Shown one piece after another: positions 1 to 11,254 of a stretch of 11,626 bases of DNA (the stretch's first letter is position 1; the number at the start of each line of letters is the position of its first letter). Made by a program: the position numbers and the translations under genes. The notes beneath the pieces were generated by a model. It ran no database searches. It worked only from the letters and a program-made list of their open reading frames with translations, and was not told the DNA's origin. Source of the stretch: Spirochaetales bacterium (GTDB lineage Bacteria; Spirochaetota; Spirochaetia; Treponematales; UBA12059); NCBI GenBank assembly GCA_016938515.1, contig JAFGUM010000261.1:1-11626 (forward strand), read 5' to 3'.

Positions 1-693
1 GCCAATTCAGCGATGTACGCGAGGCAGAACAAGGTTACGCGCCTGCAAAATGCGATGACACTGCTCGGCATCAACACCATTAAAAACGTCGTGATACTCG
101 TAACGGGTTCGAGTATGTTCAGGCAGAGCGCTGGATCACGGTTTTATACGTACTTTTGGCGCCATTCCCTGGCTACCGCCTTTGTATCACGGGATCTGAG
201 CCAGCGTCTGGGTATGGAATCTGTTTCAGAAGAAGCTTTTATAGCTGGTCTTCTCCACAATATTGGTCAGGTAGCGCTGTATCTTTCAGGACCAGCCGCG
301 TATGAAGCGCTGGTTGGCGAGGTTGAACGAGACGGTCGCCGTTTTAGCGAGCTTGAGGAGGCAGCGTACGGCACTACGCACCGGGATGTCGGCGGAGAAG
401 TGCTGGCTCTGTGGAACTTTCCGGAGATGTACTCTGACTGTGCTCGCGAGCACGGCAACGCCAATATCACCTCGAGCTGGAAGAAGCTCGTGCTCGTCGT
501 TTCGGTAGCGGCTTTCATAGCAGGCAACTGGTTCCAGTTCAAAGACAATCCAAAGGAATGGGCGCTTCTCAACCCGCTACTCGTTCATCTGGGGCTTGAC
601 ACCGCGAGCCTCGAGGCGTACCAAGCCGAATACCGGGAACGCATCGAGACGGACGCGTTTTATAAAGAATGCCAGAATCTGCTCATTGGATGA
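1..693 (+). CDS. HDOD-domain signalling protein, 3' part (5' end outside window)
   Basis: The reading frame is open from base 1 and ends at TGA 691-693. The first codons give ANSAMYARQ, which matches the usual NSa-x-y stretch inside HDOD domains, so the ATG at 13 is internal and the true start lies upstream. Further HDOD landmarks follow: AMTLLGINTIKNVV, then FWRHSLATAF, then EEAFIAGLLHNIGQVALY, then an E-rich segment with THRDVGGEVLALWNFPEMYSDCAREHG. HDOD domains are related to HD phosphohydrolases but usually lack the metal ligands and act as regulatory or scaffold domains in signal transduction, often linked to c-di-GMP or chemotaxis. Here the HD pair of LLHDIG reads HN, consistent with a non-catalytic domain. 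No transmembrane segment is evident. The gene runs convergent with the pelB-like gene and overlaps its last codons by 11 bp. A functional link with the polysaccharide locus is possible but unproven. Confidence 0.85.
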   Translation, partial: ANSAMYARQNKVTRLQNAMTLLGINTIKNVVILVTGSSMFRQSAGSRFYTYFWRHSLATAFVSRDLSQRLGMESVSEEAFIAGLLHNIGQVALYLSGPAAYEALVGEVERDGRRFSELEEAAYGTTHRDVGGEVLALWNFPEMYSDCAREHGNANITSSWKKLVLVVSVAAFIAGNWFQFKDNPKEWALLNPLLVHLGLDTASLEAYQAEYRERIETDAFYKECQNLLIG

Positions 694-718
694 TGTAATC
701 TCCGAGTGCCATTCTGGC
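671..718. repeat. Inverted repeat spanning both stop codons of the convergent gene pair
   Basis: GCCAGAAT (671-678) and ATTCTGGC (711-718) are a perfect 8-bp inverted repeat with a 32-nt loop. The loop contains both stop codons (683-685 minus, 691-693 plus). A second short perfect stem, TGGCGC-TT-GCGCCA (715-728), overlaps the right arm. There is no T-run on either side, so it is not a standard intrinsic terminator. It may form the 3'-end structure for one or both transcripts, or be chance within coding DNA. Confidence 0.35.
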
Positions 719-3700
719 GCTTGCGCCAATGCTGCCTGACCAGTACGAAACGGCTGTGTCTGTAGCCGCTGTCCACGTGAGCCCAGCGTCGATGCTTAGC
801 ATCATATCGCGACGCTCAAAGCCCAGCGACAGGGTTCCATCCATGGAAAGCCGCCCGTCTCCAGCCGCAGCGTAGTAACCAGGCCAGAACCGAGCAGAAG
901 CAGACAGCCTGGTAGTATCACCGGAATCGGTGCGGATCGCTACCTCTGGGCCGCCCTGTACCGTTATCACGCGGTCTGGAGCGTAGTAGTCATCAGGCGA
1001 TGTATCGGTGGCGTCTTGATACGATGCCACAGCCGCCAGATCCAGCGTAACCTGTGGGCTTGCCACTATGACGCTGCCCAGCCGGGCTTCTCCGGAAACT
1101 CGTAGCAGCGTGTTTATGGCGGCATCATCGACACCTGCCTGGAATATGCCACGAGCACCAGCATTGAGCCGGCCACTCAGGCTTCGCGCAAAGCTCCGCG
1201 AGCTGTTCTCCGCGTAGTAAGACCCGCCAATATCGATGACGTGTTCGTAGTGCGCGCTGCGGTTACGGTAGTACGTTTCCTCAACTTGATCAAAGCTATA
1301 CTCAAGGCTGGCTTCCGCGCCTTTCTGCAGCCACGAAGCCCCTGCTTTGAAACTCGGTGAGACGACTACATAGTCTGAAACCGTCTCCAGCGAATAATCG
1401 GCTACGGACGCGGGGAGGAAATTGTCCAGCTTGTTCTGGGCGGTACCTCCCAGCGCGCCGAATATTGTAACGCCTGTGCCGCGTATTTTTGCCGGTACTT
1501 CAAGATTGATGCTGTGAAGCGTTACGGATTCAGGGAAGGTTCCCGAGGCTGGCGCGTGAATCTTGTTGTGCCTGATTGTATATGAAGCGTCAAGTTCGAA
1601 TGAGCTGCCGAGGGGTGTACCGTAGGCGAGTCGCGAGATTGTAGAGGAGTCGCCGGTATCTATGGTTGTTGACAACCGTGCTTCAAGGCCAGGCGCGTGT
1701 GTGCCCGCGAGTCTGTTGTACGAGGATACTGCGTTGGCGTACCGTGGATTGAGGTCAAATACCTCTCGGTACTTCTTCATCGCGCCGCTCCAGTCACCAC
1801 TCATCTCCATGGCCCTGCCGAGTGTGAACATCGAAGCCGAGTCCGATGGGCTGACGGCAAGAACCCGAGCGAGCGCGAGCGCGGCATCGTCTGGGCGGTC
1901 TAGCCCGAGGTATACCTCCGCGAGCTCCCTGCGGTCTTGCTGCGTCTCGCTATCGTACTGGTAAGACCGCAAGGCCATCCGTGCCCGAGCGCGTTCAAGG
2001 AGTACACGACGGGCGTCCGCCATGTCTTTGGCCAGCAGGGTGCCAGTGCCGCCCTGCTCCAGGAGTTGCTGCTCGATGTACGACGCGCGCGCTACGGTGC
2101 CATCATCGAACGCCGAATCACGCGGTTCGTTCCGGGTTAGGGTAAGCGCAATTTTAGCTAGCTCGGGGCCGTGGGAGTAGTAATCCTCCGGGACGAACGC
2201 GTCAGCGGGCAGGGTTCCGGTTTCCCACAGCTCTGCCTGCACCAGCGATACACGCGTCGCCTCCAGCGGTTCCCCGTCCGGGGCGGACGGGGCGCCGCGG
2301 CCTAGTAGTAGCAGCATCCTGGCTCGTACGTGGTACGCGAGAGGATTTTCACCGGAGATTGACGCGAGTAAAGACAGGTCCGCATCCGGATTCCATAGCC
2401 AGGGAGCCAACTTTGATAGCATCTCTTCGTCGGCAACGAGGGCCAGGGCTTCACTGGTGCTCATCTCCACCAGCGACCGTGCTTCAGGTGTTACCGCTCC
2501 TATCCAGTCAAGTAGCGCTTCTCCGTAGGCCAGCGCCTTGAGCAGGGCACGGCGGGCGTCTTCGAGTTCGGTCGCTGTTTTTGCCTGACGCTTGGCATCC
2601 TTGCCGCGCAGCGCCTGATCGTTACGGGCGCTTGCCTTGAGTAGTGTTTCCCCCGCTTTTCGCAATGCGGTAGCCGCTTCGGTAGCCGCCGCAGGTATGC
2701 CTCCTACCGGGGTTTCGTACAGAGCCAGCGCATCAAGCAAGCGGTACGTTTCGGCGAGATCACCGTCAAGCTCCTTGAAGATAGCGAACATCTTGTTTGC
2801 GAGGATATTGTGTATCTCGCCGAGGGCGGCAGAAAGCATGCCATTCCAGTAGTAGGCGCGCACGAGTTCCTGCCGGAGTTCGAGATTATCTGGAGTGGCT
2901 CTGAGTCGCGCCGTATAGCCTTCCAGCGTCGCTGTTTTAATGGCTGCTTGCTGTTCTACCGCCGCGAGCACGCTGGCGAGTCGCGGTGATTCTGCAAAGG
3001 TGTTCCCGATGCGCTCGAGGGCCAGAGTGGCTTGTTCCGCCTGGCCAGATTTGCCGTACGTGTCAATCAGCAGCAGGTACAGAGCAAGACGCTCAGGGAA
3101 GGCTTCAATGCCATCAGACCAGGTCTGGATTGCCTTGTCGGGGTACCCATTCGTCAGGTATAGCTGACCAAGCTCAATAATTGAGTCAGCATCATCCTTG
3201 ACGCTGGTCCACAGACTGGAAAGCAGTCTCTCGCCATCTCTGACCTTGCCTTCCCACAGTAGCGTCAGCGCGTAGTTTACGCGAAGGTTGAGATCGTCCG
3301 GAAAGAGCTCTATGGCCTTGACGTACAATTCTTCGGCTTCCTGATATTTCATAAGCCACGCGCTCATTTTGGCTGCTTCCGCCCAAACGGAAGGATCTGC
3401 CCCAGGCGAGGCCAGGTATTCCCTGTACAGCCTGAGTCCCTCGTCTATCTCCCCGCTCCAGAAGCGGCTTTTGGCCATCTGCAGCGTGAATCGAGGGTCG
3501 TCTCCGGCCACCACGCGTCCCCGTGACAGCGTTTTCGCCGCGCTGGCGTTGTCGCCTATCAAGTTGTAGACCTGAGCGAGCAACAGGTATCGTTCCCGCT
3601 CTTTTGGCGCCGTCTGAATAGAGTATTCGTACTGGGGAATGGACAGGTACGGCGTGTTGATGGTTCTGTCTGCCAGATTTTTGGGGAAGCGATCCGGCAG

Positions 3701-4306
3701 CGCGGCTCTGTCTTCGGTTCCGGATGCCACGGCGGAGCCGGATGCAAGCAGAAAGAAAGCGTCAAGCGAAAAATAGTATCGTGAATCGTATTTTCGTGTT
3801 TCGCTCACCTCGAAGCGGAAGGTATGCACGCCTTCGGTGAGTTCCAGTGGTTCAAGGGCGGTAAACCAGTAGTTGACGGTAGAATAGCGTTCGTTTACTG
3901 CTACCTGCTCCCTGTACAAGTGTACTGGCTCCGCTCCGTCGATGCTCAGGTGCAGTGGTGATATGAACGAAGCGGTAGTTTCAACCTGGGGGCCTGGTGG
4001 TGTGCCTCCAACCCAGAGTGACCATGTCCCGGGTGTGTGTATAACCACCGTGTATTCGGCGTAGAAGGGAGCCGCGGTCGAGGTTCCTTCGCGATTGAGC
4101 TGGATCATGCGGAACGACGACGAGCCGTAGTCCAGGGTTGGGGCGTTGGCAAAGTTGGTCGTAACAGCGTCTTCCGCCTCTACCCAGATTAGACCCTCAG
4201 GCGCGGCCGGGAAGACAGGCTCCAGCCGCAGGGGCGTGGCGGTTTGGGTAAATGCTACAGAAGTGCACAGCGCTGACAGGATATATAAAAAATAAAGCTT
4301 TTTCAT
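683..4306 (-). CDS. PelB-like outer-membrane export porin: signal peptide, CBM-like domain, TPRs, C-terminal beta-barrel
   Basis: The protein has 1207 residues, close to P. aeruginosa PelB (about 1190). The start at 4306 is chosen over an in-frame ATG at 4330 because GGAGG lies 4 nt upstream (4311-4315) and the protein then opens with a typical signal peptide (MKKLYFLYILSALCTSVAF; cleavage near residues 20-24). Residues about 38-185 form a beta-rich module with an EAED motif (43-46), a PGTWSLWVGG strand and a closing FSLDAFFLL, resembling CBM6/CBM35 carbohydrate-binding modules. TPR-type helices follow at about 230-480 (for example YQEAEELYVKAIELFPDD) and about 780-862 (GDWSGAMKKYREVFDLNPRY), separated by a helical linker. 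Residues about 869-1207 alternate polar and hydrophobic residues with many aromatics, as in a 16-stranded barrel. Known family role: PelB passes Pel polymer through periplasm and outer membrane. The gene is divergent from pelD. BcsC- or PgaA-type porins share this build; the pelDEFG context favours PelB. The protein ends in IIQ rather than an aromatic residue. Confidence 0.78.
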   Translation of the reverse strand: MKKLYFLYILSALCTSVAFTQTATPLRLEPVFPAAPEGLIWVEAEDAVTTNFANAPTLDYGSSSFRMIQLNREGTSTAAPFYAEYTVVIHTPGTWSLWVGGTPPGPQVETTASFISPLHLSIDGAEPVHLYREQVAVNERYSTVNYWFTALEPLELTEGVHTFRFEVSETRKYDSRYYFSLDAFFLLASGSAVASGTEDRAALPDRFPKNLADRTINTPYLSIPQYEYSIQTAPKERERYLLLAQVYNLIGDNASAAKTLSRGRVVAGDDPRFTLQMAKSRFWSGEIDEGLRLYREYLASPGADPSVWAEAAKMSAWLMKYQEAEELYVKAIELFPDDLNLRVNYALTLLWEGKVRDGERLLSSLWTSVKDDADSIIELGQLYLTNGYPDKAIQTWSDGIEAFPERLALYLLLIDTYGKSGQAEQATLALERIGNTFAESPRLASVLAAVEQQAAIKTATLEGYTARLRATPDNLELRQELVRAYYWNGMLSAALGEIHNILANKMFAIFKELDGDLAETYRLLDALALYETPVGGIPAAATEAATALRKAGETLLKASARNDQALRGKDAKRQAKTATELEDARRALLKALAYGEALLDWIGAVTPEARSLVEMSTSEALALVADEEMLSKLAPWLWNPDADLSLLASISGENPLAYHVRARMLLLLGRGAPSAPDGEPLEATRVSLVQAELWETGTLPADAFVPEDYYSHGPELAKIALTLTRNEPRDSAFDDGTVARASYIEQQLLEQGGTGTLLAKDMADARRVLLERARARMALRSYQYDSETQQDRRELAEVYLGLDRPDDAALALARVLAVSPSDSASMFTLGRAMEMSGDWSGAMKKYREVFDLNPRYANAVSSYNRLAGTHAPGLEARLSTTIDTGDSSTISRLAYGTPLGSSFELDASYTIRHNKIHAPASGTFPESVTLHSINLEVPAKIRGTGVTIFGALGGTAQNKLDNFLPASVADYSLETVSDYVVVSPSFKAGASWLQKGAEASLEYSFDQVEETYYRNRSAHYEHVIDIGGSYYAENSSRSFARSLSGRLNAGARGIFQAGVDDAAINTLLRVSGEARLGSVIVASPQVTLDLAAVASYQDATDTSPDDYYAPDRVITVQGGPEVAIRTDSGDTTRLSASARFWPGYYAAAGDGRLSMDGTLSLGFERRDMMLSIDAGLTWTAATDTAVSYWSGSIGASARMALGDYIIQ

Positions 4307-4310
4307 GACG

Positions 4311-4315
4311 CCTCC
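4311..4315 (-). promoter_or_regulatory. Ribosome binding site deciding the pelB-like start
   Basis: GGAGG on the minus strand lies 4 nt before the ATG at 4306-4304. No comparable site precedes the upstream ATG at 4330, so the shorter form with the N-terminal signal peptide is preferred. Confidence 0.8.
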
Positions 4316-4333
4316 GATAATTGCCTTCATTGG

Positions 4334-4354
4334 AACATCGCGACTTCCGATGTT
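4334..4354. promoter_or_regulatory. 21-bp perfect dyad, candidate operator between the pelB-like gene and pelD
   Basis: AACATCG (4334-4340) and CGATGTT (4348-4354) are perfect 7-bp inverted half-sites separated by 7 bp, a layout typical of a dimeric transcription factor site. The dyad lies in the 54-bp gap between the divergent start codons, 6 bp before the pelD ATG. It would cover roughly -5 to +16 of the pelB-like promoter proposed at 4356-4384. A possible pelD -10 element, GATAAT at 4316-4321 (no convincing -35), would place the dyad just downstream of pelD's transcription start. As RNA it could also fold as a hairpin directly before pelD, which lacks a clear Shine-Dalgarno sequence. The regulator is unknown. 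Confidence 0.5.
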
Positions 4355-4355
4355 A

Positions 4356-4384
4356 ATAATATGCGAGCGCTACGCCTGCGGCAA
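4356..4384 (-). promoter_or_regulatory. Sigma70-type promoter for the pelB-like gene
   Basis: On the minus strand, TTGCCG (4384-4379) and TATTAT (4361-4356) are separated by exactly 17 bp. They match consensus at 4 of 6 and 5 of 6 positions. The start of transcription would fall near 4349, giving a leader of about 40 nt that contains the GGAGG site. The promoter overlaps the first eight codons of pelD, so the two transcription units compete for the same DNA. Confidence 0.5.
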
Positions 4385-5755
4385 TCTTCAGGGGCTGTTT
4401 TAACTGAAATTATTTTCATTGCCGCGATTCCAGTGGTCGTAGGGCTACTTGTGCCCGAAGCCGGTTCGATTCTGGTGCTGTCGCTGTGGGCTTTAGTAGC
4501 ACCGGTTGTCGCGGCTTTCAACGGGCTCGCATGGGCTTTGGCAAGCGCGGCTATCGGCGGTACGGCTCTTGCCCTGGTGCCAGGGCTTCCCACGATTAAA
4601 CTGGACGATACGCTCGTAGCAATTATTACCGCCACGGCAGCTAGTACAGCGTTCGTTTCGTTTACGAGACGCAGGCTTACCAGCTTTCGCGCCAAGCTGC
4701 TCGGGCGCTACCGCAACGCGATTCACAGCCTTGTAGAAATCAGGAAGCGAGCCGAGGTATTTGAAAAAGTAAACCGTGTACTGGAAAATCGGGTTTCATC
4801 GCAAAAGGACTCCATCACCATTTTGCACGACCAGGTAAAAAAAATGGCTTCCTTGAACCTTGATCAGGCGCTGGATACGATTCTGGAGACTCTCGTGCTC
4901 TTTGCCGAAATGTCTTGTGGTTCGATATGGCGCATGGACGAACACACGAAACAGCTCGTTCCAGCGGCTACCCTCGGCTGGCAAGATTACGCCTTGCGGG
5001 ATGTTACGCTCGATCTGGATTCTACCATCGAGGGCTACGTATTCAGAAACCGGAAGATCTTTTCACTGCGAATGCTGCTGGACAGCTCCGAGTTCGACAG
5101 ATTTGCTACAGATCGCACCGTCATTACGATGCCTATCATCATCGGCTCCAAGCCCTGGGGTGTGCTTACCGTTGAGGATCTACCCTTTGAGCGGTACTCC
5201 CAATACACGGAAACAATCATAGCCATCATGCTCAGCCTCGCTGAACCATACCTGAGGCAGATCATGGAATACGAGAAGCTCAATGATCAGAATGAGGTGG
5301 ATCCAGAGACGGGGCATCCCCTGCTGTCAATTTTATATAGAACGCTCGACGGGGATCTGGAACGCATACGGCACGAACCTGGTTTTGTCTCGCTTGTCAT
5401 CCTCGAGATTGCCAACTTCGACGATCTTCTGGGGCGCTGGGGCAGGGAGCGCATCAAGCACATGCTGTTCTCGCTCAAGAACGACTTTGACACGGTAATG
5501 AAGACGAAGTACAAAGCGTTCCATTTTAAAGAAGACAACCAGCTGGCCATGCTCATATACGATCTGGATCAGGACGGAACTTCGTTCTTCTGTCTTGATT
5601 TGCTTACCATGCTGAGCAAGTACCGATTTGCCATCGACGAAATCGAGACTCCCGTGGAGCTTATAGTTGGTTTCAGCTCCTCGACGCAGAGTGGAGAAAG
5701 CGTAGACGTGATGCTGGGTGCCGCAGAGCACCTGCTATCGGTGCAGAGGCTCTAG
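4361..5755 (+). CDS. pelD: PelD-like membrane receptor with GAF and degenerate GGDEF domains
   Basis: The protein has 464 residues (P. aeruginosa PelD about 455). Order of parts: four hydrophobic segments within residues about 14-101 (IIFIAAIPVVVGLLV; ILVLSLWALVAPVVAAF; ALASAAIGGTALALV; LVAIITATAASTAFV); a helical, probably coiled-coil linker at about 103-160; a GAF domain at about 165-305 (GSIWRMDEHTKQLVPAATLG, MPIIIGSKPWGVLTVED); and a GGDEF-like fold at about 310-464. The GGDEF signature is replaced by KEDNQ (390-394), so no cyclase activity is expected. In PelD the degenerate domain normally binds c-di-GMP through an RxxD inhibitory site and so activates polymer synthesis. Here the aligned positions read KTKY (381-384), which puts c-di-GMP binding in doubt. 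The ATG at 4361 is the only credible start, although no good Shine-Dalgarno is seen. It is the first gene of the pelDEFG operon. Confidence 0.85.
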   Translation: MRALRLRQSSGAVLTEIIFIAAIPVVVGLLVPEAGSILVLSLWALVAPVVAAFNGLAWALASAAIGGTALALVPGLPTIKLDDTLVAIITATAASTAFVSFTRRRLTSFRAKLLGRYRNAIHSLVEIRKRAEVFEKVNRVLENRVSSQKDSITILHDQVKKMASLNLDQALDTILETLVLFAEMSCGSIWRMDEHTKQLVPAATLGWQDYALRDVTLDLDSTIEGYVFRNRKIFSLRMLLDSSEFDRFATDRTVITMPIIIGSKPWGVLTVEDLPFERYSQYTETIIAIMLSLAEPYLRQIMEYEKLNDQNEVDPETGHPLLSILYRTLDGDLERIRHEPGFVSLVILEIANFDDLLGRWGRERIKHMLFSLKNDFDTVMKTKYKAFHFKEDNQLAMLIYDLDQDGTSFFCLDLLTMLSKYRFAIDEIETPVELIVGFSSSTQSGESVDVMLGAAEHLLSVQRL

Positions 5756-5764
5756 GGTGGCCCT

Positions 5765-6514
5765 ATGAAAAACTTCAGGGCTCTGCTGGAATCACGCACG
5801 GGGTTCAAACCAAGAACCGAGGCGCAGGCGCTGCGAGGCTACGCCGAGGGATTTCTGAATCCTGAATTTTATATATACCGGGCGGTTAATATACACCCCA
5901 TCATAGAAGAGCCGTGGGATGTAAACGAGATAGACCGCTTGCTCGCGAAGGAAGACCTTGACGTAGATACTGCCACACTTCTCATGATGGTGTTTGAGAA
6001 GATGATACGCCATCCAGACAAGGAGCTCGCGCTATTCGCCGCCGAGAGCATCAACGCGCTCGAGCGACGGTACCTTGCACAGGTACAGAAGCTCAGAAAA
6101 AGCCTCGGCGCCGAGCCGTCGTCAGAGGCTGTGCTGGCCCTCGTGGGGCGGTACAGGGACATGGGCCGGCTGTTTGCGTCCAGGCCGGTGCTTGGTGTCT
6201 TCTATCTTGGTGAGGCGCGGCGCGCGTACGAGAAGCACGCGAAGCGCATTGGCACGAATTTCACCATGCTACTACTGTATCTGGATGTGCTTATTGCGCT
6301 ATGCGACTCGGAGGCGGCCAAGCCGGTACTGGTGCGCGCGCTCAAGGATCACCCCGGAAACGCGCGGCTACGGTATGTTGCTGCCAAGCTGGCTTTTGCT
6401 GACGGCAGCGTGCGCGAAGTACTAAAAAACCTTGAAGCGATGGATATTGAAGAAGGCGACGCCGAGTACGCGGACATACAGAATTTCTGGACAAGAGGGG
6501 CGTGCCGTGACTGA
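5765..6514 (+). CDS. pelE: PelE-like soluble helical-repeat protein
   Basis: The protein has 249 residues and no signal peptide or obvious membrane segment, so it is probably cytosolic. It starts at ATG 5765, 9 bp after pelD. A purine-rich AGGGTGG (5754-5760) overlapping the pelD stop codon serves as ribosome binding site. The N-terminal half has paired helices with the motif HPDKELALFAAESINALERRY (residue 80 onward), the HEAT/TPR-like style I associate with PelE proteins. The C-terminal half (about 120-235) has TPR-like helices such as AAKPVLVRALKDHPGNARLRYVA. P. aeruginosa PelE is longer (about 330 residues), with N-terminal membrane segments before its TPRs, and is thought to bridge PelD, PelF and PelG. 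Assignment rests mostly on position between pelD and pelF plus repeat content. Its last 8 bases overlap the pelF start. Confidence 0.68.
   Translation: MKNFRALLESRTGFKPRTEAQALRGYAEGFLNPEFYIYRAVNIHPIIEEPWDVNEIDRLLAKEDLDVDTATLLMMVFEKMIRHPDKELALFAAESINALERRYLAQVQKLRKSLGAEPSSEAVLALVGRYRDMGRLFASRPVLGVFYLGEARRAYEKHAKRIGTNFTMLLLYLDVLIALCDSEAAKPVLVRALKDHPGNARLRYVAAKLAFADGSVREVLKNLEAMDIEEGDAEYADIQNFWTRGACRD
6494..6500 (+). promoter_or_regulatory. Ribosome binding site deciding the pelF start
   Basis: AGAGGGG lies 6 nt before GTG 6507, inside the end of pelE. It supports the GTG start over the in-frame ATG at 6432, whose extra 25 residues would merely overlap pelE and do not resemble a glycosyltransferase N-terminus. 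Confidence 0.7.
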
Positions 6515-7913
6515 TCGTCTTCGCGTCTGCATGATACTGGAGGGTTCGTACCCGTACATTACCGGGGGAGTAGGCGCCTGGGTTCACGATATACTAAGCG
6601 GGCTGCCAGACATTGAGTTTAGCCTGTTAACGCTGTCGCCAAGTGCGGACCAGCCCCTTCGCTACACTCTGCCCCCCAATGTGGTGGAGCACAAAGACGT
6701 AGTCCTGTCTGCTTCTACCGCCAAGACCCAACGTCGTCCGAGGCGTACGGTAGTAGACTCCATACTCAAATTACACGAGAGAATGTTCAAAAAGGAAGTG
6801 CCTGACATCATGGGAACCCTGGCTGTCAGGAACAATCATGAAAACTTTGGCAACGGACTCCTTGCGGATGATCGACTGTGGAACATGATCGTAGGCATGA
6901 ATATGCGACGAAACCCCGCCTACGCGTTTTCTGACTATTTCTGGGCCTGGCAGTCGGCGCACCGCATGATGTTCGAGGTATTGCGAATACGAGCTCCCAG
7001 GGCAGATGTGTACCACGCTATATCCACAGGGTTCGCGGGGCTTGCCGCTCTCAACGCCAAATCCAGAACCGGCAAGCCATTCCTGTTGACAGAGCACGGG
7101 CTCTATCACAAGGAACGCGAGATGGAAATAAGAAAAGCTGATTTTGTAAAAGGCTACCAGCGTGATATGTGGATCAATATATATTCCAGTTTAAGCGTGA
7201 TGTGCTACCGGAACGCTGACACGATTACATCCCTCTTTGAAGAGAACCGCCGCAAGCAGATAGAACTGGGAGCAAAACCAGAACGCTGCTTCGTCATTCC
7301 AAACGGCATAGATATTGAGCGATTTTCGTCGGTGAAGCGCTCGCCACGGCCGGGGTTTCACGTTGGGCTCGTAGGGCGCATCGTGCCTATCAAGGACGTG
7401 AAGACCTTCATTGCCGTTGCCAAAATAGTACTCGACCGACTGCCTGAAGCGATGTTCTACGCTATCGGGCCTACCGACGAGGATGAAGAATACTACGAGG
7501 AGTGCGTAGCTCTCGTGGAGAGTCTGCGCATACAGGATCATTGCATCTTTACAGGCAGGCAGAACGTACTTGAATACTACTCCTTTCTTGACGTTATGAT
7601 GCTGACGAGCGTCAGGGAAGCCCAGCCTCTCGTCATCTTGGAAGGCTGGGTCGCCGGGGTACCGTCTATTTGCACCAAGGTGGGAAACGCCCCGGAGATG
7701 CTCGACTACGACGAGCGCTTCCTCGCCGCGTCAAAAGATCCCGGCAGCCTTGCAGAAGCGGTGCTGTACGTGCACGGGCACCCGGAAGAGATGCGCGCGA
7801 TAAACGAAAAAAATCGTCAGAAAGCCATGACGCTCTACAATAAGCGTGACATGAAAGCCCGGTATGGAGAGCTCTACGAATCTATGAAGGGCGGTCAACC
7901 GTGGCAGGCATAG
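6507..7913 (+). CDS. pelF: PelF-like GT4 glycosyltransferase (GT-B fold)
   Basis: The protein has 468 residues (P. aeruginosa PelF about 507). The GTG start at 6507 puts the nucleotide-fold strand at the usual position: RVCMILEGSYPYITGGVGAW (6-25), with the glycine loop of GT-B enzymes. TEHGLYHKERE (195-205) is a PelF signature. The C-terminal Rossmann domain opens at IPNGID, followed by GRIVPIKD (290-297), which supplies the Arg and Lys expected to contact the donor diphosphate. The EX7E motif is E371-AQPLVIL-E379. In known systems PelF is a soluble cytosolic enzyme that uses a UDP-N-acetylhexosamine to build the Pel chain, working with PelD, PelE and PelG at the inner membrane. All catalytic landmarks are intact. 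The gene overlaps pelE by 8 bp and pelG by 13 bp, implying translational coupling. Another GT4 enzyme is unlikely, given the signatures and the PelG neighbour. Confidence 0.93.
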   Translation: MTDRLRVCMILEGSYPYITGGVGAWVHDILSGLPDIEFSLLTLSPSADQPLRYTLPPNVVEHKDVVLSASTAKTQRRPRRTVVDSILKLHERMFKKEVPDIMGTLAVRNNHENFGNGLLADDRLWNMIVGMNMRRNPAYAFSDYFWAWQSAHRMMFEVLRIRAPRADVYHAISTGFAGLAALNAKSRTGKPFLLTEHGLYHKEREMEIRKADFVKGYQRDMWINIYSSLSVMCYRNADTITSLFEENRRKQIELGAKPERCFVIPNGIDIERFSSVKRSPRPGFHVGLVGRIVPIKDVKTFIAVAKIVLDRLPEAMFYAIGPTDEDEEYYEECVALVESLRIQDHCIFTGRQNVLEYYSFLDVMMLTSVREAQPLVILEGWVAGVPSICTKVGNAPEMLDYDERFLAASKDPGSLAEAVLYVHGHPEEMRAINEKNRQKAMTLYNKRDMKARYGELYESMKGGQPWQA

Positions 7914-9277
7914 GCTTTGAGCTGCGCAAGGTGCTGGGTAAAGGAGGCATTGGCGGAACCGTCGGTGCCATAGTTTCTGGAATATTCGTGGTTGCCGGCC
8001 CATGGCTCATTTCCGTGCTGTCTATGGTCGTGCTGCAGGCAGCGTTTTCTCGAATACGCTTTGAAGGCGTTTTGGTGTTCCAGGCTACTATTGTTTACAG
8101 CTACGCGGTTTCCTTGAGCCTGTCTTCTGGTTTTCAACACCATTTTACGCGTATCATAGCGGATCTATCATGGGAAGGACGCAACGGTGAGGCGACGGCG
8201 TGGATGCTGCGCTTTGCGGGAATCGTTGCGCTCGCGTCCCTGGCTGTTTCCGTGCCGGTCGCGAGTCTGATGCCTCTGAATATCTCAGGTGACGTGCTGC
8301 TGTACAGGATTTCAATCGTCATCCTGTTCGCTGCGATAAATGTAGCGTGGATAGTCATACTGTTCGTATCGTTGCTTCGGGGCTTTATGGTAATCAGCGC
8401 CGTATTCGCCCTCGGCATGACCGTTTCCATCGTTGGCGCCGTGCTGCTGGCGGGCCTGCGCGGCGTGGGTGGCGCGCTGTACGGCTATGCGGTAGGCGTA
8501 CTGGTGCTGGATGGAGCGTTTATCGCGCTCGCGCTGCAGCGATACCCGCCACGGCGGCCTGCAGACGGCTGGGCGGCGTTCGGCACGTACACCAGGCGAT
8601 ACCGCGCCCTCATACTGTCGGGGATAGGATTTTACGCTGGACAGTGGCTGGACAAATTTTACTTCTGGGCGGTTCGAGGAAGCTCCGTCAACGGCACGCC
8701 ATTTCGTGTCTACGAAGCGTACGATTACCCGGTCTATCTCGCCGGTCTTACTATAATCCCCGGGCTTGTGTACTTTACAATAATTACTGAAACACAGTTG
8801 TTTACAGACTTGAAGCATTTTCTCTTCTCACTCAACAGCGCTAGCTGGACTAAGATACAAAAAGCCAAGATGCGGGTTATACACAGCCTCAAGAGAGAGT
8901 TGCGGGATCAGAGCTTGCTGCAGGCAGCCTTCTCGCTGGCATTCGCCGCTCTTGTACTCACCTATGGTCCACCCGGGTTCGTTACCGTGGAACTGTGGCT
9001 TGCCATGGGTGCCGCGTTCGCTCAATTTACGCTGCTGACCATACTCGTGTTCCTGTATTACTTCGAGCAGTATGACAAGGCACTGGTGACGGCTGGAGCA
9101 TATTTCGTGATGAACGGGGTGGGCGGTGCTGTAGCGTATTCACTTCTGCCATGGTTGCCCGCGGGAGCGGGACACCTGCTGGCTGGGCTCGTTGCCTGCG
9201 CTATAGGCTACGCGATACTCAGAATCTCTGTATATCGCATGGACAGGATAATATTCCAGCGTGCCGTGGGGGTATAA
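7901..9277 (+). CDS. pelG: PelG-like polytopic inner-membrane polysaccharide transporter
   Basis: The protein has 458 residues, almost the length of P. aeruginosa PelG (about 456). It starts at GTG 7901 with AGIGFELRK, the typical PelG N-terminus, 13 bp inside pelF. AAGGGCGG (7887-7894) is a plausible ribosome binding site. About 12 hydrophobic segments can be picked out, including IVSGIFVVAGPWLISVLSMVV near the N-terminus, IVILFAAINVAWIVILFVSLL, then YRALILSGIGFYAGQWLDKFYFW mid-protein, and AGLVACAIGYAILRISVY at the end. PelG belongs to the MOP exporter superfamily (Wzx-like) and is thought to carry the growing polymer across the inner membrane in a complex with PelD, PelE and PelF. It is the last gene of the operon; its stop codon runs directly into the terminator. 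Confidence 0.92.
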   Translation: MAGIGFELRKVLGKGGIGGTVGAIVSGIFVVAGPWLISVLSMVVLQAAFSRIRFEGVLVFQATIVYSYAVSLSLSSGFQHHFTRIIADLSWEGRNGEATAWMLRFAGIVALASLAVSVPVASLMPLNISGDVLLYRISIVILFAAINVAWIVILFVSLLRGFMVISAVFALGMTVSIVGAVLLAGLRGVGGALYGYAVGVLVLDGAFIALALQRYPPRRPADGWAAFGTYTRRYRALILSGIGFYAGQWLDKFYFWAVRGSSVNGTPFRVYEAYDYPVYLAGLTIIPGLVYFTIITETQLFTDLKHFLFSLNSASWTKIQKAKMRVIHSLKRELRDQSLLQAAFSLAFAALVLTYGPPGFVTVELWLAMGAAFAQFTLLTILVFLYYFEQYDKALVTAGAYFVMNGVGGAVAYSLLPWLPAGAGHLLAGLVACAIGYAILRISVYRMDRIIFQRAVGV

Positions 9278-9322: not shown

Positions 9323-11254
9323 TTACCAGGACGCGGTCTTGTCCTTGTTGGCGTCGTAGAAGGCGGCAATCTCGGCGGCGGACCAGACGCGCTCGTCTAT
9401 GATGACGCCGTTCACCTTGCCGTTGAGCCCGTAGTATTTGTTGAGCGTTTTGGTGCCGTCGTAGAACTGCGATCCTATTACCACAGGCGATCCGGTAGCG
9501 AAACTGGAAGACATTGAAATGTTGCTGAAGCCCCTTGAGCCGGTTTCAACGCCATTTACGTATATCTTCATTGAGTTGGTCCCAAGATCCCACGTGGCCA
9601 CGATGTGGTACCAGCTACCCAGGTTAAGCTTCTGGTTGCTCTGCACTATATCGTATGAGCTGCCGGAGTTGGCCGATAGGCCAAATGCCGGCGTGTTGGT
9701 GTTCCAGAACTGCAGTGACCATATCTCGTCTGCAAAGTCGGAGCGGATGCCAGCGTGAACTATGCCGGGATAGCTAGTTGTTTTCTTTACATTGACCCAC
9801 GCTTGCACGGTGCCGCGAACGTGGAAGTCGTACGCGTCGGTGTCCAGCAGCGTGCCCTGCTTGCCGTTGTAGGTGGATACGATGCGGTTTCCAGCCGTGT
9901 CCAGCAGGTCGCCCGCGATGTCGTCCGTGACCACCGTTTCCAGAGGAGCGCCGTTGATGGCCGCGTACAGCGTGCCCAGGTCGCTGATGGGAGTATCGGT
10001 GACGATGGCCACCGGCTCGGAGTCGGTTGTGGAGATGGCGGTGTTCTCTGTCTTGGTGTTGACCGTAACCGCCGTATCGAGGTTGACCACCGACAGCTCG
10101 CTGCCGGAAGGAATCCACAGCGTGTCGTAGGCTGAGGTTATTGCCGCGGCTTCGTCGTTGATTATCTCAACGTAGTTGTCTTGCTGGGTGGCGATGTTGA
10201 CGACGCGGGTTTTGGTGCGGGTGTCGCGAACCGCGTTCGAGTAGTCGGGAGTCTGCGTAACGGCGTCGTAGTCGTAGACGATTTCCTGGCGCACCACGCT
10301 CAGGGCGAGGTAGGCCTGGTCGGGTTCTGCCGCGATGTCGGGCATGAAGAAGCCAGAAGCCGGATCGATGACGTCGCCGTCCTCGGTGTTGAGCGTAGTG
10401 GCGGCTTTCTCGAATACGAGGGTGGAGCCTACCAGCTTGGTGTCGCCTTCTGTAAGGTGCTCGGTGTAGAAGCGTACGCCGACGATGGCGCGCACCCTGT
10501 TTCCGCTCCAGAAGCTGAAGCTCGGGCTGTCGGCGTACTCGCGGGTGTAGACTACGACCGATGACCAGGTCGCCGATGCGTCGGCGGCGGGAGCAAAGGC
10601 CTGGGGGTACTCGAGGCTGCCGTCAATATCGAAGGCCGCGAAACGATTTGTAACGTCGACGATGGTCTCAGTCTGCACGCTGTCGTCGCGGAAGGTCAAC
10701 TCGTTTTTGGAGCGGTATTTGGCGTCGTCGACACCGGTGGGGGTGCTGATGGGGTCATCGTTGGTCCACGTGCCTATAGCATTCCCGTCACCCGCAGCAA
10801 TGTCGTGAATGTAGTACCACTCTTCCTGTTTGAGACGCGGGTCGTAGTCGGGGAAGGTGGTGGTGACTTTAATGGAAAATACGTAATCCGTCGAAAGCTT
10901 CTCTACGACCCAGCTTGAGGTCTGTCCCGGTTCGGGGTAATCAGCCTGCGTACCGGTGCGTGTTTCTCCGACGCTGTCGGGCAGGTCGTACGATGTGGTG
11001 CCCCACGTGGGAACGGTGGCTCTTGGCTGGGTGCCCGTCGAGGCGGAGCCAAAAGGCGTGAGTGCCCTGTCTGAAGAAATAAACGTTCCATTGAGTATAT
11101 CAAACGTGGTCATGTAGGTGCCCTGGAACTCGTCCAGGTCGCCACCGGCGCTGATGCCCTCGGGAGCCATGGTGAGTGTGCACGAAGAAGCGAACGCGAG
11201 GACGAACAGCGCGGCTGCGAGCTTCGTGATGGAAGCGGTCGGTGATCGTCTCAT
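9323..11254 (-). CDS. Secreted lipoprotein with C-terminal LamG-like (concanavalin-type) domain
   Basis: The protein has 643 residues. The start at 11254 is set by AGGAGG (11265-11260) 5 nt upstream and by a lipoprotein signal peptide directly after: basic start MRRS, hydrophobic core LAAALFVLAF, lipobox AFASSC with Cys25 as the lipidated residue. An upstream in-frame ATG at 11392 would add 46 residues reading through the proposed promoter and is rejected. Residues about 28-460 are beta-rich and acidic, rich in Thr, Asp and Tyr, and I do not recognise them. Residues about 465-640 read as a LamG-type jellyroll: GTVQAWVNV, LNLGSWYHIVATWD, MKIYVNGVETG, VVIGSQF, and GLNGKVNGVIIDERVWS near the C-terminus. 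Such domains often bind glycans or proteins at the surface. The gene has its own promoter and converges on pelG. Glycan binding or a link to Pel is inference from domain and position only. Confidence 0.85.
   Translation of the reverse strand: MRRSPTASITKLAAALFVLAFASSCTLTMAPEGISAGGDLDEFQGTYMTTFDILNGTFISSDRALTPFGSASTGTQPRATVPTWGTTSYDLPDSVGETRTGTQADYPEPGQTSSWVVEKLSTDYVFSIKVTTTFPDYDPRLKQEEWYYIHDIAAGDGNAIGTWTNDDPISTPTGVDDAKYRSKNELTFRDDSVQTETIVDVTNRFAAFDIDGSLEYPQAFAPAADASATWSSVVVYTREYADSPSFSFWSGNRVRAIVGVRFYTEHLTEGDTKLVGSTLVFEKAATTLNTEDGDVIDPASGFFMPDIAAEPDQAYLALSVVRQEIVYDYDAVTQTPDYSNAVRDTRTKTRVVNIATQQDNYVEIINDEAAAITSAYDTLWIPSGSELSVVNLDTAVTVNTKTENTAISTTDSEPVAIVTDTPISDLGTLYAAINGAPLETVVTDDIAGDLLDTAGNRIVSTYNGKQGTLLDTDAYDFHVRGTVQAWVNVKKTTSYPGIVHAGIRSDFADEIWSLQFWNTNTPAFGLSANSGSSYDIVQSNQKLNLGSWYHIVATWDLGTNSMKIYVNGVETGSRGFSNISMSSSFATGSPVVIGSQFYDGTKTLNKYYGLNGKVNGVIIDERVWSAAEIAAFYDANKDKTASW

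Follow-up and report, generated by a model that had tools for sequence, protein, structure and literature searches.

A spirochaete pel-type locus with a divergent PelB-like exporter gene and no recognisable PelA-type deacetylase

In the species where it has been tested, Pel depends on a deacetylase: parts of PMC10269871, PMC7112168, PMC13254593 and PMC12345266 report that PelA or PelADA is required in Pseudomonas aeruginosa, Bacillus cereus and Streptococcus intermedius, and a passage of PMC10269871 presents Pel deacetylation as an anti-biofilm target. Rearranged and lost pel loci are known from an operon survey (sections of PMC7112194), and the term Spirochaet- does not occur in the main texts of PMC7112194 and PMC7112168. 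Among the titles listed from the open-licence literature (subscription papers were outside the scope), no report of such a system emerged, whether under Pel in spirochaetes, acetylated Pel, pelDEFG without pelA, or PelB with a carbohydrate-binding module. Here we analyse a pel-type locus on a stretch of 11,626 nucleotides from a Spirochaetales bacterium (the window), which is an entire contig (the longest contig being 11,626). An earlier note, made from the letters of this DNA, had proposed that it carries pelD-E-F-G together with a PelB-like gene turned the other way, with no pelA or pelC, and that this represents a lineage-specific variant of Pel. Since the window is a whole contig, the region just outside pel could not be read in its own genome, and the flanks were tested in relatives instead.

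From left to right, the window holds a gene of the HDOD family, a gene for a tetratricopeptide repeat (TPR)-plus-barrel protein on the minus strand, pelD, pelE, pelF and pelG on the plus strand, and a LamG lipoprotein gene on the minus strand. The D-E-F-G order (4361-9277, plus strand) was as proposed, and PelF and PelG both exceeded the curated cut-offs: PelF scored 339 bits against the NCBIfam PelF equivalog NF038011 (cut-off 100), and PelG scored 256 bits against Pfam PF16933 (cut-off 29) over its full length. The EX7E and RxxxxK motifs of PelF, which we take to be its catalytic motifs, are kept in all 39 sequences compared. PelD gave a GAF match and a GGDEF match under cut-off, and PelE only a weak TPR match; the identities of these two are confirmed by their place in the locus and by their counterparts in relatives. 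pelA and pelC were indeed absent from the window.

To place the locus among its relatives, PelG was sought in named genomes, where the best 80 of 537 confirmed loci were compared, and in 392 genomes of the phylum, 24 of which carry it (labels beginning with G or L are our own for genomes and loci). The deacetylase-less set comprises 21 genomes without DUF2194, namely that of the window with G063, G169, G271, G305, G329, G349, G360, G361, G374 and G381, and the named genomes L001, L003, L004, L006, L011, L012, L015, L018, L021, L027. A sister branch of eight (L005, L007, L008, L009, L016, which is labelled only 'bacterium', L017, L133, L140), an outgroup of six loci of the phylum (L013, L014, L019/L142, L020, L141, L143) and 58 pel loci from outside the spirochaetes, 38 of them reaching 8 kb or more before pelG and 5 kb or more beyond it, served for comparison; L002 and L010 are the same loci as G063 and G374, met twice. 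All grouping was made after the results were known. Thus the fairer statement is the one based on the tree of PelF plus PelG (39 sequences, 907 columns), in which a single clade with support 100 takes in 19 of the 21, L003 and L006 stand apart as a pair (support 85), and the sister branch splits off with support 100. PelG was absent from both other genomes of the window's genus, so the pel locus is patchy.

Genome-wide, DUF2194 was found in none of the 19 clade members and in neither member of the pair, as against 7 of the 8 sister-branch genomes and all 11 remaining genomes of the phylum with pelG; the match lies off the pel contig in L007 and L009, and is broken by a stop in the genome of L009. 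Judged by sequence, DUF2194 and PelADA are one family: the protein of L008 matched 9ZAU, given in part of PMC13254593 as the B. cereus PelADA crystal structure, at E 4e-45, and in this one sister-branch protein checked the DD, HxxxH and HxxD motifs, described there as zinc-binding or catalytic, are retained. A profile made from the deacetylase parts of proteobacterial PelA and run on 29 genomes likewise found nothing in the 21, although it recovered all three non-spirochaete controls lying outside the profile (L049, L054 and Desulfovibrio L034, E <1e-139) as well as the DUF2194 protein in each of three sister-branch genomes included (G256, L005 and L008, E 2e-15 to 2e-10). Seven other gene families recur at three or more deacetylase-less loci, and no deacetylase is among them. 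The pattern suggests either two losses or a single loss with a later regain. The variant is lineage-specific, as the earlier note had suggested, in the form of a DUF2194-less clade of 19 and a pair. It is to be added that a KSB1 pel locus has a gene weakly like the spirochaete DUF2194 between pelE and pelF (L022:6319-8583), with no Pfam match and in an order matching the Gram-positive pelDEADAFG.

The PelA-type hydrolase is also missing from the deacetylase-less loci, in a pattern less clean than that of the deacetylase. GH114 (PF03537) was absent from the window assembly and, among 11 deacetylase-less genomes searched (the ten named genomes were left out of this search), was found only in G305 and G329, on contigs other than those of pel; it is present as well in G322, a genus mate without pelG. 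Among outgroup genomes, G020, G033, G087 and G158 have it on a contig that carries pelG, three of them next to DUF2194.

The PelC profile, which found all three non-spirochaete controls, gave nothing in 20 of the 21 deacetylase-less genomes, the window's own included; the single match was weak (E 3e-5) and lay in the genome of L027, on a 35,951-base contig distinct from that of pel. It also gave nothing in three deacetylase-bearing sister-branch genomes tested. Thus the suggested PelC-free exit agrees with the absence of a recognisable PelC, but it is wider than this locus and not special to it.

The opposite-strand gene and pelD were found to start from the same short region as claimed, the former at an ATG at 4306 preceded by GGAGG and the latter at 4361, with a gap of 54 bp; in nine relatives the gap is 18-53 bp by mechanically assigned starts. 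In the synteny comparison, 16 relatives have the pelB-like gene adjoining pelD on the opposite strand, so the arrangement is not due to chance; it holds for 17 of the 21 deacetylase-less loci, window included; in L139 the gene is co-directional, in L027 it is detached, and in L018 and L021 none was found on the stretch compared. Sister-branch loci have pelB after pelG and reading the same way in the seven cases where it is present in the sequence, and DUF2194 comes next in the five uncut ones (L005, L008, L016, L017, L133), L007, L009 and L140 being cut by contig ends. Nonetheless, a divergent layout alone is no marker of PelA loss, because pelB is divergent in the outgroup loci L013, L014, L019/L142 and L143 as well, and in L142 it is followed by DUF2194. 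A gene lies between divergent pelB and pelD in three outgroup Spirochaetota (L013:4417-5523, L014:4912-6033, L142:8600-9709); its product has an SLH match in L013 and L014, and the L142 counterpart resembles it. A promoter scan of the window's divergent region gave one weak match, with 0.3 expected, and an Rfam search of the window gave nothing at the gathering threshold.

It was co-occurrence that tied the divergent gene to Pel more firmly than its own sequence does, as it was found in 9 of 9 pelG-bearing and 0 of 14 pelG-less genomes tested (E 1e-15). The label PelB, proposed in the earlier note, therefore stands on linkage, co-occurrence and architecture, since the barrel could not be assigned by sequence to PelB over BcsC or PgaA. 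It had no match at E 0.01 to the PelB C-terminal barrel family PF24604 (E 3e-91 for the L049 PelB), and the PgaA model reached 41 of the 367 bits needed, with only the TPR parts matching. Divergence of barrels is seen in other loci as well: a single PelB barrel used as query found open reading frames at only 8 of 59 loci, of which five were above E 1e-8. The barrel region has beta rather than alpha periodicity (z 3.5 in the window and 3.6 on average in 24 sequences, with a mean of -1.1 for the TPR region; BcsC 1.3, PgaA 2.4, L049 PelB 1.6). A [YF][YFW]xP motif lies about 100 residues from the C-terminal end in 21 of 24 spirochaete sequences, and occurs also in BcsC, PgaA and 3 of 8 proteobacterial PelB sequences, being absent in the Pseudomonas-type L049 and L075. 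Part of PMC12141448 describes a conserved tyrosine that PelB shares with BcsC, the equivalence of which to the YYAP motif of the window could not be shown.

The best-conserved part of the PelB-like protein is its N-terminal domain, with a mean identity to the window of 44% over 23 relatives, compared to 29% for the TPR region and 20% for the barrel. Three of 14 such domains matched Pfam CBM_6 (best E 8e-4), the window's own remaining below cut-off at E 0.19, and a search of the PDB with this domain gave no significant match (best E 0.058). The domain was not found in the 58 non-spirochaete pel loci. It had been overlooked in the earlier note, as had the two linked genes described next, so that in these respects that account was incomplete.

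The lipoprotein gene after pelG belongs to a family with a lipobox and a domain of about 300 residues without a Pfam name, with or without LamG. The family occurs at 15 of 21 deacetylase-less loci and at 0 of 14 other spirochaete loci, some of which have short flanks; it is present in 14 of the 19 members of the main clade and, independently, in L006 of the separate pair. Absence of the deacetylase and presence of the lipoprotein thus go together. The LamG part is pentraxin-like (best PDB match E 0.0016), and 43 homologues were found among 7996 candidates scored, all rows that name an organism being spirochaetes; some homologues carry the label Gracilinema caldarium. After the lipoprotein gene, L010 has a sugar nucleotidyltransferase-type gene (L010:12736-13569), possibly for precursor supply, with a relative in L011, and in L001 an M23 peptidase gene follows pelG (L001:11564-12295).

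The HDOD gene looks like an unreported pel partner, and no paper linking HDOD with Pel was found in the open-licence literature. It is linked to pel at 14 of the 21 loci in the deacetylase-less set, at 6 of 8 in the sister branch and at 4 of 6 in the outgroup, as against 2 of 58 non-spirochaete loci, both Desulfovibrio-type (L023, L034). Across spirochaete pel loci it takes three different positions (for example in the window, L005, L008 and L014), and HDOD matches number just 2-9 per genome in nine genomes searched.

Control of PelD through the usual site for cyclic diguanylate (c-di-GMP) appears unlikely from its sequence. In an alignment of 22 sequences, the RxxD I-site is at the expected position in none of 18 spirochaete and in all four non-spirochaete PelD proteins, an RxxD lying farther upstream in two of the 18. 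Streptococcal PelD has likewise lost c-di-GMP binding, as reported in part of PMC12345266.

The coordinates of the features in the window are collected below.

Table. Features of the 11,626-nucleotide window, with positions counted from its first letter
Feature	Position	Strand	Remarks
HDOD-domain gene	1..693	+	5' end cut by contig; PF08668, E 8e-39; converges on and overlaps the 3' end of the pelB-like gene
PelB-like outer-membrane exporter, 1207 amino acids	683..4306	-	TPR families; signal peptide judged by eye
N-terminal CBM6-like domain of PelB-like protein	3737..4198	-	residues 45-198 of the 1215-amino-acid open reading frame starting at 4330
TPR scaffold of PelB-like protein	1691..3718	-	TPR family matches
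Probable C-terminal beta-barrel of PelB-like protein	686..1678	-	beta periodicity; no barrel family match
YYAP motif within barrel	977..988	-	form and place resemble BcsC, PgaA and some PelB barrels
Divergent intergenic region, 54 bp	4307..4360		between the pelB-like and pelD ATGs
pelD	4361..5755	+	GAF; degenerate GGDEF without RxxD I-site
pelE	5765..6514	+	weak TPR
pelF, GT4 glycosyltransferase	6507..7913	+	NF038011, E 5e-101; EX7E and RxxxxK present
pelG, inner-membrane exporter	7901..9277	+	PF16933, E 8e-76; sole copy found in assembly
pel-linked lipoprotein	about 9323..11254	-	domain of about 300 residues without a Pfam name and C-terminal LamG; Laminin_G_3, E 3e-19

In other loci, mechanical open reading frames of about 900-950 amino acids had suggested PelF-PelG fusions (L002, L016, L027); these proved to be overlapping open frames instead, and in none of the loci examined do PelF and PelG, or PelD and PelE, share one frame. 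Two copies of pelG are present in four genomes of the same phylum (G020, G087, G158, G174); in G158 and G020 the two share a contig and are separated by less than 20 kb.

The interpretation that we favour, with the scales standing about level, is that of a Pel-type synthesis and export system of diderm spirochaetes from which the PelA-type deacetylase has been lost and which lacks a recognisable PelC. Its exporter would be Pel-like and act without PelA and PelC, probably on an acetylated polymer. By the function of the family, with the motifs kept, PelF would polymerise a polymer of the N-acetylgalactosamine (GalNAc) type, and PelD, PelE and PelG would move it across the inner membrane; the architecture and linkage of the PelB-like protein suggest that its N-terminal domain may catch the polymer, the TPRs lead it on and the barrel release it. 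With no PelA, we propose, the polymer would exit still N-acetylated and hence neutral, a surface lipoprotein with a lectin-like LamG domain, encoded at most of these loci, may keep it attached to the cell where charge no longer can, and the linked HDOD protein is a candidate regulator. The full form of this proposal, which we offer tentatively and regard as more doubtful than probable, is that of a first natural deacetylase-free Pel system, in which the polymer is a neutral, fully N-acetylated poly-alpha-1,4-GalNAc, the N-terminal domain of a PelC-free exporter replaces the guidance by PelA and PelC, the lectin-like lipoprotein replaces charge, and HDOD replaces c-di-GMP.

Several results weigh against this interpretation. 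Parts of PMC10269871, PMC13254593 and PMC12345266 report that loss of the deacetylase stops Pel, or Pel-dependent aggregation or biofilm, in the three species tested; as the enzyme is required in all three, a deacetylase-free system would be an exception. In a profile comparison of the barrel with those of PelB, BcsC and PgaA, none was significant and the best was PgaA at 7% probability, so that the better match to BcsC or PgaA, named in the earlier note as an argument against PelB, did not appear, and neither did a match to PelB; BcsC and PgaA entered as single sequences, which makes this a weak test. The charge of the TPR and barrel regions, compared between groups with and without the deacetylase (p 0.23 and 0.15; 18 against 5 sequences in all), showed no sign of the conduit adapting to a neutral polymer, the differences pointing, without significance, in the expected direction of lower acidity in exporters of the group that lacks the enzyme. 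The lipoprotein family is absent at six of the 21 loci, two of these being cut by contig ends. The remaining two points, a deacetylase of another kind and the completeness of the window assembly, bear on rival explanations. The polymer could be deacetylated by an unlinked enzyme of another family recruited to Pel, such as the Polysacc_deac_1 protein at G000:C205, and this we regard as an unlikely alternative. Such a protein is present in all 18 genomes searched, the window genome and ten others of the 21 included. However, all six searched members of the same family that lack pelG (G322, G354, G320, G332, G342, G343) have one as well, the window genome's copy has full-length homologues of 51-81% identity in all three pelG-less members compared, and in the 12 pelG-bearing genomes searched its contig is a different one from that of pelG or, in G349, it is 88 kb away. 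Because of the homologues in pelG-less relatives we judge it not to be Pel-specific, although we keep the explanation alive. The G000:C205 protein (L159) has a long N-terminal part without a Pfam match, and its homologues occur both with and without pel.

Somewhat more improbable is that relatives of PelF and PelG have been reused for another sugar or a cell-bound glycan, to which PelA would be irrelevant. The missing PelA, PelC and PelD I-site and the additional lipoprotein with its lectin-like domain would fit such a polymer, but PelF exceeds its equivalog cut-off with its motifs kept, and the sister branch retains a PelADA-type deacetylase, with intact catalytic residues in the one checked, which implies a Pel-like substrate close by in the tree. 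That the absence is merely an artefact, the deacetylase being encoded on contigs missing from incomplete assemblies, is very improbable. It is true that the window's own assembly is just 79% complete, in 605 contigs, and that the lone sister-branch genome without DUF2194 (L140/G047) is 88% complete and has pel at a contig end. Nonetheless, the enzyme is missing from all 21 genomes, of which ten relatives are 93-100% complete (quality figures being available for none of the ten named genomes) and one, G349, is a single contig of 4.0 Mb, and several loci with about 10 kb on either side show no deacetylase.

If the favoured interpretation of a deacetylase-free Pel-type system is true, these bacteria may make an uncharged version of a common biofilm polymer. 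A branch that keeps synthesis and export without the deacetylase would separate what the enzyme is needed for in export from what it is needed for in binding, and nature offers for comparison both loci that have the enzyme and loci that lack it, their PelB being of one kind. The locus would also extend Pel to the spirochaetes, with two pel-linked genes that did not appear in the literature searched, and hints at how export through the outer membrane can do without a PelC ring.

Overall, the locus resembles pelABCDEFG of P. aeruginosa in its PelDEFG core, its D-E-F-G order and its TPR-plus-barrel exporter, but differs in having neither PelA nor PelC, a divergent exporter gene, a PelD without the I-site, and linked HDOD and LamG lipoprotein genes. 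Its exporter has a signal peptide, judged by eye, and the N-terminal CBM6-like domain, whereas P. aeruginosa PelB starts with a likely uncleaved membrane helix, as described in part of PMC12141448. With the pelDEA(DA)FG loci of B. cereus and S. intermedius it shares a PelDEFG core without PelC; those Gram-positive systems, however, keep and require PelADA, whereas the spirochaete locus has no PelADA and has an outer-membrane exporter. Like BcsC and PgaA, this exporter joins a TPR scaffold to a C-terminal barrel with [YF][YFW]xP near the end, but only the TPR parts match, and there are no bcs or pga partner genes in the window. The sister-branch pelDEFG-pelB-DUF2194 loci differ from it in their co-directional pelB after pelG, their PelADA-type deacetylase (kept in 7 of 8) and their lack of the LamG lipoprotein (0 of 8), but share with it the same PelB with its N-terminal domain, the same core, the absence of PelC (three tested) and, in 6 of 8, the HDOD gene.

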